The position numbers and the translations under genes are program-made. A stretch of DNA of 64,000 nt from Actinomycetota bacterium (lineage in GTDB: Bacteria > Actinomycetota > Nitriliruptoria > Nitriliruptorales > Nitriliruptoraceae): positions 62,001-126,000 of the forward strand of contig JAHWKY010000008.1 of assembly GCA_019347575.1 (NCBI GenBank), in the 5' to 3' direction. Positions within the stretch are counted from its first letter, which is position 1; every line of letters begins with the position of its first letter. Positions 2,338-46,378 of the stretch are shown piece after piece. The notes beneath the pieces are model-generated. The model searched no databases. It saw only the letters and a program-made list of their open reading frames with translations, and was not told the DNA's origin.

Positions 2338-2679
2338 GTGGCGACCACCACCGACGCTGCCGCTGACACCGGGATCGAGCCCGAAGAGGTCCACCACCCC
2401 ACGCCCGGGGAGTACGTCCGCATCGGCATCGTGCTCGCGGTGCTGACCGCGCTCGAGGTGAGCCTGTTCTACATCGCGCTGGCCGATGCGGTCCGCGTGA
2501 CGTCCATGCTGATCCTGATGGTGATCAAGTTCGGGTCGGTCGTGGCGTTCTACATGCACCTCAAGTTCGACTCCCGGCTGTTCCGGCGGCTCATGCTGGC
2601 GGGGCTGATCCTGGCGGCGGCGGTCTACGGGGCGGTGTTGGCGATGTTCACCAACGTCACGCCGCCCGGCACGACCTGA
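2338..2679 (+). CDS. Cytochrome c oxidase subunit IV-like small membrane protein
   Basis: This 113-residue protein has three hydrophobic helices and matches the small prokaryotic subunit IV family (COX4_pro/CyoD-like) found behind ctaE. Its role is probably structural, helping assembly of the oxidase. The N-terminal 25 residues are hydrophilic. A conserved-looking MVIKFGSVVAFYMHLKFD segment joins helices two and three. The GTG start follows GAGGAG directly upstream. The gene is followed by two copies of a 68-bp repeat before ctaG. Assignment rests on size, topology and position, so the family is likely but the exact symbol is left blank. Confidence 0.85.
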   Translation: MATTTDAAADTGIEPEEVHHPTPGEYVRIGIVLAVLTALEVSLFYIALADAVRVTSMLILMVIKFGSVVAFYMHLKFDSRLFRRLMLAGLILAAAVYGAVLAMFTNVTPPGTT

Positions 2680-2689
2680 GCACGGCATG

Positions 2690-2825
2690 ACTGATCGAGC
2701 CTCACCCCCCAGGCCGGCAACGCCGGCCCCTCCCCCCTCTCAAGGGGGGAGGCATGGACTGATCGAGCCTCACCCCCCAGGCCGGCAACGCCGGCCCCTC
2801 CCCCCTCTCAAGGGGGGAGGCATTG
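2690..2825 (+). repeat. Two tandem 68-bp repeats carrying a Shine-Dalgarno-sequestering hairpin
   Basis: Two near-identical 68-bp units (2690-2757 and 2758-2825) fill the gap between the subunit IV gene and ctaG. Each unit holds a perfect hairpin GGCCGGC-AAC-GCCGGCC and a second one, CCTCCCCCC-TCTCAA-GGGGGGAGG. The right arm of the second hairpin is the Shine-Dalgarno sequence of the start codon that follows. Each unit ends with GGAGGCAT plus ACTGAT, so the repeat also copies a start context. Related copies lie at 6985-7078 and 37855-37981. Confidence 0.9.
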
Positions 2826-3662
2826 ACTGATCCGCTGGCCTGGCACCTCCACCCGGAAGCGTGGCTGCTCTGCCTGGGGTTGCTCGGGCTGTACTTCGGC
2901 GCCATCCGCCGCTACGGCCGGCTGTTCCACCCGCGCCCGTCCGACCCCCCGATCACCTCCGGTCAGCGGTTCGCGTTCGTGCTCGGCGTCGCGCTGCTGT
3001 GGTTCGCCTCGGCCTCGCCGTTGCACGACATCGGCGAGCGCTACCTGTTCTCGGCCCACATGATCCAGCACCTGATCGAGGTGTTCGCGGTGCCGCCCCT
3101 GCTGCTGTTGGGCACGCCCCGCTGGATGGCCGAGCTCGTCCTGCGCCCCGCCTGGCTCCGACGTTCGGTGCGGGCGATGGGCCAGCCCCTCGTCGCCGCG
3201 GCGACCTTCAACGCGCTGCTGCTCGCACTGCACTGGCCGGCGCTGATCGAGTGGACGCTGGGGTCGGAGTCGCTGCACGTCGGTGTCCACGCGGTGCTCG
3301 TCGGGGCGGCGCTGCTGATGTGGCTCCCGGTGCTCAGTCCCGTGCCGCACATCGTCCCACGGCTCTCGCTGCCGGGGCAGATGGGCTACTTGTTCCTCCA
3401 GACGCTGCTGCCGACGGTCCCCGCCTCGTTCCTTACCTTCGGCGAGGCCCCGCTGTACGCCATCTACGAGACCTTCCCCCGCATCTGGGGCATCTCCGCG
3501 CTCCACGACATGCAGATGGCGGGCCTGATCATGAAGCTCGGCGGCGGCGTGCTGCTGTGGACCATCATCACCATCCTGTTCTTCAAGTGGGCCTCTCGCG
3601 AGGACCGCGCTGACCACGGTGAGGCTGCCGCCCCCCCTGTGACGTCGTCGACCACCGGCTGA
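2823..3662 (+). CDS. ctaG: Cytochrome c oxidase assembly factor CtaG (caa3 type)
   Basis: This 279-residue polytopic membrane protein belongs to the caa3_CtaG family, which helps assemble the copper centres of cytochrome oxidase. The SAHMIQHLIEV segment is the family's histidine motif in a membrane helix, and a second histidine cluster, SALHDMQMAG, lies near the C-terminus. About seven hydrophobic segments are visible. The start is TTG at 2823, inside the end of the second 68-bp repeat. GGGGGGAGG lies just upstream and is paired in a hairpin. Related ATG codons at 2687 and 2755 begin other frames and do not reach this protein. It is followed after 17 bases by a cupredoxin gene, consistent with a copper-handling operon. 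Confidence 0.92.
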   Translation: MTDPLAWHLHPEAWLLCLGLLGLYFGAIRRYGRLFHPRPSDPPITSGQRFAFVLGVALLWFASASPLHDIGERYLFSAHMIQHLIEVFAVPPLLLLGTPRWMAELVLRPAWLRRSVRAMGQPLVAAATFNALLLALHWPALIEWTLGSESLHVGVHAVLVGAALLMWLPVLSPVPHIVPRLSLPGQMGYLFLQTLLPTVPASFLTFGEAPLYAIYETFPRIWGISALHDMQMAGLIMKLGGGVLLWTIITILFFKWASREDRADHGEAAAPPVTSSTTG

Positions 3663-6097: not shown

Positions 6098-7078
6098 TCA
6101 GAGGAGGGCGTCGAGGGTGGCGGCGCCGAAGACGAGGGCGAGGTAGCTCGTCGAGTAGTGGAACAGTCGCATGGCGGTCCTCACGTCAGGATCACGACGG
6201 AGGCGGTGGGCGAGCACGAGCCACCCGGCGGTGAGCGCGAGCGCGGGCACGACGTACCAGGGCCCGGCCTGCGCCCCGGCCCAGTACAGCAGCACCATCG
6301 CCAGCAGCAGGTAGCTGTAGAGCAGGATGTGGCGGGTCGCTTCGCGGTTGCCGTGCGTGACGGTGAGCATGGGCAGGCCTGCGGCGGCGTAGTCATCGCG
6401 GTAGCGCATCGCCAGCGCCCAGAAGTGTGGCGGCGTCCAGTAGAAGACGATGCCGAACAGCAGCCACGGCTCGGGTGCAGCCAGGGTCGCACCGGGCACC
6501 GCGACCCAGCCGGTCAGCACCGGCACGCACCCTGCCGCCCCGCCGATGACGACCGCCTGGAACGTCCGGCGCTTCATCCCCAGCGTGTACACGAAGACGT
6601 AGAACAGGATCGCCGAGGTCGCCAAAAGCGCCGCCGGGAGGTTGACGAGCAGCGCCAGCCACGCGAACCCGGCCACGCCCAACACGACCCCGAACGCGAC
6701 CGTGGCGCGGCTCGACACCAGATCGCGGGCGGTCGCCCGGCCGCGGGTCCGGTCCATCATGCGGTCGATGTCGCGGTCGAGTTCGTTGTTGAGCACGTTC
6801 GCGCTCGCCGCCGACAACGTCCCGCCCAGCAGCGTCGCGAGCACCAGCCACGTCCCGGGCCATCCCTGCTCCGCGATGACCATGGCGGGCACCGTCGTCA
6901 CCAGCAGCAGCTCGATGATGCGCGGCTTGGTCAGCCCAACCCAGTAGCGGGTCACCACGCCCCGCTCCCTGGTGGGCGCCCCGGCCTGGGGGGTGGAGAC
7001 AGAGTCGGTCATGCCTCCCCCCTTGAGGGGGGAGGGGCCGGCGTTGCCGGCCTCGGGGGTGGAGACAGGGTCCGTCAC
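6098..7078 (-). CDS. ctaB: Heme O synthase (protoheme IX farnesyltransferase)
   Basis: This polytopic enzyme of the UbiA superfamily adds a farnesyl group to heme B to make heme O, the precursor of heme A in the aa3 oxidase. The core begins near VTRYWVGLTKPRIIELLLV. It carries the two Asp-rich motifs, NNELDRDIDRMMDRT and, later, YRDDYAAAGLPML. About nine helices are visible. The GTG at 7078 overlaps the ctaA stop by four bases, so translation is coupled. The first 22 residues are encoded by the repeat family at 6985-7078, and an inner ATG at 7012 with its own GGGGGGAGG could be the original start. The two possible proteins differ only in this extension. Confidence 0.95.
   Translation of the reverse strand: MTDPVSTPEAGNAGPSPLKGGGMTDSVSTPQAGAPTRERGVVTRYWVGLTKPRIIELLLVTTVPAMVIAEQGWPGTWLVLATLLGGTLSAASANVLNNELDRDIDRMMDRTRGRATARDLVSSRATVAFGVVLGVAGFAWLALLVNLPAALLATSAILFYVFVYTLGMKRRTFQAVVIGGAAGCVPVLTGWVAVPGATLAAPEPWLLFGIVFYWTPPHFWALAMRYRDDYAAAGLPMLTVTHGNREATRHILLYSYLLLAMVLLYWAGAQAGPWYVVPALALTAGWLVLAHRLRRDPDVRTAMRLFHYSTSYLALVFGAATLDALL
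6985..7078 (-). repeat. Start-codon repeat at the 5' end of ctaB
   Basis: Read on the minus strand, this is one full copy plus a partial copy of the family seen at 2690-2825. It holds the GGCCGGC hairpin (7036-7052) and the CCTCCCCCC/GGGGGGAGG hairpin (7014-7035). The second hairpin contains the Shine-Dalgarno of the ATG at 7012. The duplicated start context encodes MTD-VSTP twice at the ctaB N-terminus. Confidence 0.88.
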
Positions 7079-8007
7079 GCCGGCACCTCGACCGGGGACC
7101 GGTCTGGAGCGGACGACGCCGCCACCTCACCGTTGCGGCGTGCCAGGACGGCCGCGGCGACGAGCGCCGCCCAGGACGCGGTCGCGACCATGAGGTGGGC
7201 GACGATCAGGCCCGCCGCCGATACCTCGGTGAACACGTGCGCCGCCCCGAGGCCGATGTTGACCGTGTAGAGGGCGAAGCCGGTGTGGACGAGCGAGGTC
7301 TCGGGGCGGGGTCGCCCCGCGCGCCCCGCGCGCATCGCGAGGTAGGTGAGCGCGACGAAGACCACGGCGACGACGGCGCGGTGACCGACGTGGAGCTGGG
7401 TGGTCGTGTCGGCGCCGGTCGGGATCAGCCCGGCATCGGTGATCGGCCAGCCCGGGACGTAGCGGTTGTGCACCAGCGAGCCGAGCACGATCACGGCGTA
7501 GACGCCGAGGGCCCCGCCCCACAGCAGCCGCGACCACGCGGTGGTGGCGTCCGGTTCACCGCGTGAGCCGATGAAGAAGCTGTTGACGGCGATGGCGGCC
7601 AGCAACCCCATGAGGATCATCGCCACGCCGAGGTGGACGCTGACGAGGTCGACGTCGAGGCCGGTCTTGACCACCGCCGCCCCGAGCCCCGCCTGGACCA
7701 GCACGGCGATCACGGCGATAGCGGCGGGCACGTACAGCCGTCGCTCCGCGGCGTGGCGTCGTCGCGCGTGGATGGCCAGCGCGATCAGCAGTCCGATGAC
7801 GATCGCGGCGACCCAGCGGTGGGTCCACTCGACGACCATGTGGAACTCCCACCGGGGCAGCAGGCCCCCGAGTGCGCCGTCCTCGCACAGCGGCCACGAG
7901 TCGCGGCAGCCGAAGCCCGATCCCGAGCCGCGGGTGAACGCCCCGATGCCCACGAGGACGAGGGCGGTCGCCAGCGAACCGACGGACAGCTTCTGCGTTC
8001 GGGTCAC
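7075..8007 (-). CDS. ctaA: Heme A synthase (COX15/CtaA family)
   Basis: This 310-residue membrane protein oxidises the methyl group of heme O to give heme A for the aa3 oxidase. Eight helices arranged as two similar halves are visible, with family histidines in EWTHRWVAAIV and VDLVSVHLGVAMI and again in QLHVGHRAVVAVV. A pair of cysteines in the first loop (FGCRDSWPLC) is typical of the Gram-positive type. The GTG start at 8007 overlaps the stop of the upstream small membrane gene, and the stop overlaps the ctaB start. The three genes therefore form one coupled unit on the strand opposite the oxidase genes. Confidence 0.94.
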   Translation of the reverse strand: MTRTQKLSVGSLATALVLVGIGAFTRGSGSGFGCRDSWPLCEDGALGGLLPRWEFHMVVEWTHRWVAAIVIGLLIALAIHARRRHAAERRLYVPAAIAVIAVLVQAGLGAAVVKTGLDVDLVSVHLGVAMILMGLLAAIAVNSFFIGSRGEPDATTAWSRLLWGGALGVYAVIVLGSLVHNRYVPGWPITDAGLIPTGADTTTQLHVGHRAVVAVVFVALTYLAMRAGRAGRPRPETSLVHTGFALYTVNIGLGAAHVFTEVSAAGLIVAHLMVATASWAALVAAAVLARRNGEVAASSAPDRSPVEVPA

Positions 8008-34441: not shown

Positions 34442-34454
34442 CGGGGTCTCCTCG

Positions 34455-34497
34455 GGTTGTGCTATCGCTTCGCTACTTGAGCACTCCTCAGGTTGTG

Positions 34498-34526
<29 letters not shown>
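34455..34526. repeat. 36-bp tandem duplication across the treS-mak stop codon
   Basis: Two 36-bp units (34455-34490 and 34491-34526) differ by only two bases. The right-hand unit contains the last codons and TAG stop of the treS-mak gene. The left-hand unit lies between that gene and glgB, so the end of the gene has been copied into the spacer. Confidence 0.92.
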
Positions 34527-37854
<3,328 letters not shown>

Positions 37855-37857
<3 letters not shown>

Positions 37858-37981
37858 GCCTCGCCCCTCAGGGGGGAGGGGCCGGCGTTGCCGGCCTGGG
37901 GGGTGAGCCCAGACAGCGTCCATGCCTCCCCCCTCAGGGGGGAGGGGCCGGCGTTGCCGGCCTGGGGGGTGAGCCCAGAAC
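37855..37981 (-). repeat. Start-codon repeat between glgE and treS-mak
   Basis: Two 66-bp units of the family at 2690-2825 lie here. Each has the GGCCGGC-AAC-GCCGGCC hairpin and the C-rich/G-rich hairpin that covers the Shine-Dalgarno. Each ends in GAGGCATG, giving ATG codons at 37923 and 37857. The right end reaches the glgE stop codon. Both start codons read into treS-mak. Confidence 0.9.
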
Positions 37982-37984
37982 GTG

Positions 37985-39979
<1,995 letters not shown>

Positions 39980-42501: not shown

Positions 42502-42527
42502 GACGACGCCGCGCTAGCGCAGAGGCT

Positions 42528-42651
42528 GGCGATGACGGAAACGCGCGTGGAGGCGTGTTCCCGTCGGGCTGACGTGCCCTGGTCGTGATGGCGATGACGG
42601 AAACGCGCGTGGACGCGTGTTCCTGTCGGGCTGACGTGCCCTGGTCGCACC
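42528..42651. repeat. 62-bp tandem duplication
   Basis: Two 62-bp units (42528-42589 and 42590-42651) each begin GGCGATGACGGAAACGCGCG and differ at only a few bases. They lie in the non-coding space between the phosphoesterase and the ABC transporter genes. They contain no gene I can support. Confidence 0.92.
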
Positions 42652-46285: not shown

Positions 46286-46378
46286 CGGAGGCGGACGGGA
46301 ATCGAACCCGCCAGGGCGTCCAAGACGCCCTCAACGGTTTTGAAGACCGCGGGGCCCACCAGGAACCCAGACGCCTCC
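46286..46378 (-). tRNA. selC: tRNA-Sec (selenocysteine, anticodon UCA)
   Basis: This 93-base gene folds as a bacterial selenocysteine tRNA. It has a long acceptor stem (GGAGGCG paired to CGCCTCC, eighth pair T-C), a 6-bp D stem (GGGTTC/GGGCCC) with a short loop, an anticodon loop CTTCAAA with TCA at 46341-46343, and a long variable arm with a perfect 8-bp stem (AGGGCGTC/GACGCCCT). The T arm is GCGGG-TTCGATT-CCCGT. The discriminator is G, and CCA is not encoded. Long D stem plus UCA excludes tRNA-Ser and ordinary suppressors. selA, selB and selD are not in the window. Confidence 0.94.

Follow-up and report, generated by a model that had tools for sequence, protein, structure and literature searches.

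What is a tandem repeat doing immediately in front of a start codon, and is it there for the gene or for itself? The question is raised by the ctaG locus in the 64,000-nt stretch of actinobacterial DNA analysed here (hereafter the window). An initial annotation, made from the letters alone, described a two-unit, 68-bp tandem repeat whose palindrome encloses the ribosome site of ctaG, and placed the same module at the starts of ctaB and treS-mak. Both descriptions are borne out: two 68-bp units lie at window 2687-2822, directly 5' of the ctaG TTG (2823), and further units precede ctaB (one) and treS-mak (two), in both cases on the minus strand. Each ctaG unit contains CCTCCCCCC-TCTCAA-GGGGGGAGG, giving palindromes at 2729-2752 and 2797-2820, and the exact palindrome occurs four times in the window versus zero times in 100 shuffles. 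The features concerned are as follows.

2338-2679, plus strand: cytochrome c oxidase subunit IV (COX4_pro), 5' of the ctaG array
2687-2753, plus strand: repeat unit 1, 5' of ctaG, with ATG start, core and hairpin arms at 2729-2737 and 2744-2752
2754-2822, plus strand: repeat unit 2, 5' of ctaG, with hairpin arms at 2797-2805 and 2812-2820
2687-2830, plus strand: leader ORF of 47 codons through both ctaG units (from the relay analysis)
2823-3662, plus strand: ctaG (Caa3_CtaG, PF09678), 3' of the array
6098-7012, minus strand: ctaB (UbiA family)
7013-7078, minus strand: repeat unit of 66 bp, 5' of ctaB, with the palindrome module at 7014-7035
7075-8007, minus strand: ctaA (COX15-CtaA), 5' of the ctaB unit
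34498-37857, minus strand: treS-mak fusion (alpha-amylase domain, Mak_N_cap)
37858-37988, minus strand: two repeat units, 5' of treS-mak, with the module at about 37859-37945
37985-39979, minus strand: glgE, 5' of the treS-mak units, its TGA and the first unit's GTG sharing a 4-nt overlap

The reading frames of these arrays are interlocked with those of their neighbours. The TGA (2828-2830) of the ctaG leader ORF overlaps the ctaG TTG start by 8 nt, the GTG (7078-7076) of the ctaB unit overlaps the ctaA stop codon by 4 nt, and the treS-mak leader ORF runs from the GTG at 37988 to the ATGA of treS (37857). The ctaB unit is in frame with ctaB and would therefore form an N-terminal extension; the first codons of ctaB are also similar to the 5' half of a repeat unit. 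Rfam returned no curated-family match for the repeat, and only a selenocysteine tRNA in the window (46287-46378, minus strand) reached its gathering score; selA, at another locus of the genome, has the start-codon repeat.

Distribution in the host genome and its relatives

We searched the host genome, a 4.89-Mb draft in 120 contigs, using a covariance model trained on 39 copies, and recovered 62 copies scoring at least 57.9 bits, one truncated copy (41 bits) and one relic (29 bits), distributed over 40 loci with one to three tandem copies per locus; this search yielded no further convincing copy below the relic. Since several copies lie at contig ends, the true copy number may be higher. At 36 of the 40 loci the last unit directly adjoins the start codon of a clear gene on the same strand, by which we mean a same-strand ORF no shorter than 92 aa or the NuoG-like gene of contig C40. 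At two of the other loci the neighbour is a short leader ORF (6 and 13 aa) leading into a gene, one locus ends with its contig, and one is the decayed relic (contig C11), with no clear gene after it. Every verified array is in sense with the adjacent genes, an arrangement with a chance of 0.5^38 under random orientation, and the genome-wide census found no antisense or start-independent copies. The bias towards start codons implied by the initial annotation is thus strong, and always sense.

The genes so preceded are a mixed set. Pfam domains are present in 31 of 35 downstream proteins tested, and the hosts include, besides ctaG, ctaB and treS-mak, gatB, fabF, selA, moaE, prmA, a recD-like helicase, ATP sulfurylase, a nuo subunit, the NuoG-like gene and genes of acyl-CoA metabolism. 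Because they span such varied functions, the suggestion that the repeat places respiration and trehalose genes under one shared control is unsupported, and a shared regulon was rejected on these grounds.

Empty sites provide a view of the junctions without the repeat. In relatives of the same family, from other genera, the gatA-gatB and pre-fabF junctions are in many cases simple ATGA or GTGA overlaps, whereas in the host genome a unit is placed exactly at these start codons. We found no copy of the repeat in 60 relatives, in 395 further genomes from the phylum (pattern search), in a scan of GTDB contigs (exact 26-mer, with the host's own genome possibly left out), in viral contigs or in plasmids. 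Covariance-model matches in the relatives are weak, and those read lie within genes or lack the module; a looser pattern applied across the class gave isolated single matches only. The closest relatives of ctaB belong to Nitriliruptoraceae and Nitriliruptorales MAGs, which makes this order the most likely home of the host, and the relatives searched include no other genome of the host's genus. At the centre of locus L095, in a genome of the same class (G050), one gene start has a similar, diverged sequence (GTGTCGCTTCCTCCCACCGGCCAGCACGCCGGCCCCTCCGCGCTCGCGGAGGAGC, 24 bits), which may be a chance match or a distant analogue.

We infer that the repeat is, or formerly was, mobile. Mobilisation of the REPIN/RAYT type was rejected for want of a Y1 transposase: the host genome has no PF01797 match, and control genomes were positive. 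Two further ideas about the origin of the insertions were rejected. Derivation of the unit heads from a native gene-start motif was rejected, as 814 kb contain only one solo head, which is not at a gene start. A long target-site duplication does not hold as a rule, since the similarity between unit head and gene, significant at P = 0.018, is driven by about five arrays; what the unit start has in common with the gene start is usually only TGAC.

The same genome contains other repeats. A second palindromic tandem family, GTGCTCAAGTAGCGAAGCGGTAGCAC, with a period of 33-39 bp and one to five copies, occurs at window 34448-34529 (minus strand) and at about 25 loci in other stretches (e.g. L024 16017-16180, L030 1097-1238 and L096 4742-4912). 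Its copies point in the direction of transcription and mostly occupy leaders that separate co-directional genes, rather than start codons. Tandem repeats built on the palindrome GGAACCCCCGTATCCGGTGGTTCC (window 22627-22858 and 23925-24170; L042 4868-5049) and a 61-62 bp tandem repeat with GATGACGGAAACGCGCGTGGACGCG (window 42527-42647; L034 1669-1831) are apparently intergenic.

Unit structure and the stop/start overlap

The 68-bp unit length in the initial annotation is right at ctaG, but the canonical unit across the genome is 65 bp, ATGACCGATCAGGCCTCACCCCCCAGGCCGGCAACGCCGGCCCCTCCCCCCTCCAGGGGGGAGGC, followed by ATGA. This unit is a 22-codon ORF whose TGA overlaps the next ATG, a small frame that the initial annotation overlooked and that is the central feature of the repeat. 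The core (approximately 53 bp) is 94% identical between copies, against only 54% for the first 13 nt, and lacks stop codons in all three sense frames, all of which are used by one copy or another. The frame read most often is that of MTDQASPPRPATPAPPPSRGEA, which contains a PPP motif, and several arrays use other frames (TPQAGNAGPSPL..., HPPGRQRRPLPP...) with the overlap relay still kept. Uniform unit length is partly a product of common descent rather than of selection.

The upstream side of the arrays is constructed in the same manner. In 18-22 of 32 arrays, the lower figure requiring a third-position GC of at least 0.80 in the upstream ORF, the upstream stop codon and the first unit's start share a 4-nt overlap, compared to 47 of 371 ordinary co-directional gene pairs (Fisher P < 1e-7), a baseline that rests on a crude gene caller. 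At three loci (L028, C26:12991 and C40) the upstream gene instead reads into the unit and stops at the unit's ATGA. By geometry, most units end with a stop that overlaps the next start by 4 nt, and as first units mostly overlap the upstream stop in the same way, a ribosome could pass from gene to unit to gene.

The strongest evidence that this geometry matters comes from 12 arrays with other unit lengths (indels) or altered starts. The relay is kept in all 12, either as a stop/start overlap at the gene or as an in-frame fusion; under a null in which 0, 1 or 2 nt are inserted per unit the joint probability is 0.0017, a test limited by first starts having been picked by eye. Five arrays are in-frame fusions with the host gene and so bypass the start-codon gate. 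The fusion arrays include those of ctaB, fabF, an acyl-CoA ligase, an amine oxidase and selA (L040), where the repeat forms an N-terminal extension. Internal start codons made superfluous have been lost to mutation (GCG in L032, ATT in L037). This retention suggests that what has been kept is the handing-on of ribosomes, not a peptide; indeed, with three frames in use, a conserved leader peptide was rejected. Furthermore, as natural mutants, the 12 arrays with altered frames make a reinitiation relay testable.

Taken together, the repeat is probably a MIRU-like translational relay, mobile or formerly mobile, that is tolerated for preserving expression of the gene downstream. A dispersed and tandemly expanding repeat of about 65 bp would settle at NTGA(C) start codons, mostly at operon junctions with overlapping stop and start codons, each unit bringing a start codon, an ORF of about 22 codons and a 3' end that recreates the ATGA overlap. 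Having finished the upstream gene, a ribosome would reinitiate on the unit and translate its ORF, thereby opening the hairpin over the next start, before terminating at the TGA and reinitiating on whichever unit or gene comes next. Some copies have since become, by drift, in-frame fusions at the N- or C-terminus. The repeat would be tolerated because the downstream gene stays translated, and it is most likely selfish or near-neutral. Consequently, of the two proposals in the initial annotation, the selfish repeat that tolerates only this site fits best.

The start-region hairpin and other explanations

Each unit contains two hairpins, GGCCGGC-AAC-GCCGGCC (hairpin 1) and the palindrome over the start region. 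The unit can fold in alternative ways, with one or the other of two C-rich arms paired to the GGGGGG arm. The calculated energy for opening positions -14 to +3 is 22.1 kcal/mol at array starts versus 12.6 kcal/mol at ordinary starts with 4-nt overlaps (P = 2e-13); with everything 5' of -17 kept unpaired, as it would be under a translating ribosome, they fall to 11.8 and 10.8 kcal/mol, respectively. These predicted energies fit the models of RNA unfolding and reinitiation that PMC12548453 reviews, and the hairpin may make coupling obligatory. It is possible, if short of an even chance in our estimation, that the repeat is an independently evolved mobile family that targets start codons and carries an obligate translational coupler, in which the hairpin of the unit would close the host start and reopen it only when the unit is translated. 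If so, the host gene would come to depend on the ORF of the element.

That the hairpin masks the ribosome site, as originally proposed, agrees with a nearly doubled cost of opening the start region, but a masked Shine-Dalgarno as the point of the element is doubtful, because GGAGG lies 1 nt from the ATG, the five fusions bypass it and the start helix lacks compensation. Only 1-2 nt separate GGAGG from the start codon, and SD-like motifs at ordinary starts in this genome are mostly 4-10 nt away. Comparison of the genome's copies revealed compensatory changes at two pairs of hairpin 1, and in the start-covering hairpin no compensatory change and several one-sided breaks. Given the low variation between copies, covariation neither proves nor excludes a role for the latter.

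The same observations bear on a regulatory module, in which the hairpin would act as a translational switch, set by leader translation or a factor in trans, and would bring the host genes under common control. The closed array starts, the alternative partners of the GGGGGG arm and the conservation of the core relative to the unit head all accord with such a switch. However, the host genes have no common function, fusion arrays bypass the gate, the peptide is unconserved across the three frames, and the start-covering helix has several broken pairs and none compensated; this explanation is consequently unlikely. A structural palindrome acting at the level of DNA or transcript, in the manner of REP/BIME, and by happenstance surviving only beside start codons, would account for two strong palindromes per unit in tandem arrays, for the compensatory changes in hairpin 1 and for the company of other palindromic families in the genome. 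It is very improbable given that all verified arrays lie in sense at a start, that the best-represented of those other families occupies leaders and not start codons, and that there is no RAYT/Y1 transposase. Selection for a leader or N-terminal peptide, for example a proline-rich stalling peptide, could draw on the PPP motif of MTDQASPPRPATPAPPPSRGEA, yet arrays in other frames keep the relay, and we give this idea hardly any weight.

Comparison with known repeat systems

REP/BIME sequences and REPINs with RAYT are likewise short, palindromic, dispersed and often clustered, but the repeat described here has no RAYT/Y1, is strictly in sense at start codons and carries a coding relay. Rickettsia palindromic elements are palindromic repeats that can be read in frame within host proteins. 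The fusion arrays resemble them in this respect, whereas most copies here are separate overlapping ORFs at a start and not protein-internal inserts. The TAACTGA repeats of Beggiatoaceae are tandem direct heptamers located just 5' of start codons (PMC4679880). These too are tandem, oriented towards the gene and situated over the ribosome site, but as heptamers they lack the internal ORF, the stop/start overlap and the unit hairpin seen here.

The best parallel is with MIRUs, and by analogy the repeat appears to work as they do. According to PMC12548453 (citing Supply 1997), MIRUs are apparently mobile, and their insertion at a start codon couples an internal ORF to the gene at a -4 spacing; PMC2734929 places them at 41 sites in M. 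tuberculosis. The likeness extends to size and number (40-100 bp, about 40 loci and tandem arrays, compared with a 65-bp unit, 62 copies and 40 loci here), to the -4 spacing between internal ORF and downstream gene (here in geometry), to a unit ORF whose start overlaps the upstream stop within operons, and to a shared orientation with adjacent genes. The host here, on the other hand, is a Nitriliruptorales-like actinobacterium rather than a Mycobacterium, and in-frame fusions and the use of all three frames are documented for its repeat. MIRUs are, to our knowledge, without dyad symmetry, whereas each unit here has two strong hairpins, one over the start region; as its palindromes differ from the MIRU features known to us, and the two were compared by description rather than by sequence, we do not class the repeat as a MIRU. 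It would mislead gene callers on start sites and N-termini in such genomes. Moreover, MIRU-type repeats may have a counterpart of different build in a distant actinobacterial lineage, in which case small mobile DNA may repeatedly find a safe harbour at overlapping stop and start codons.
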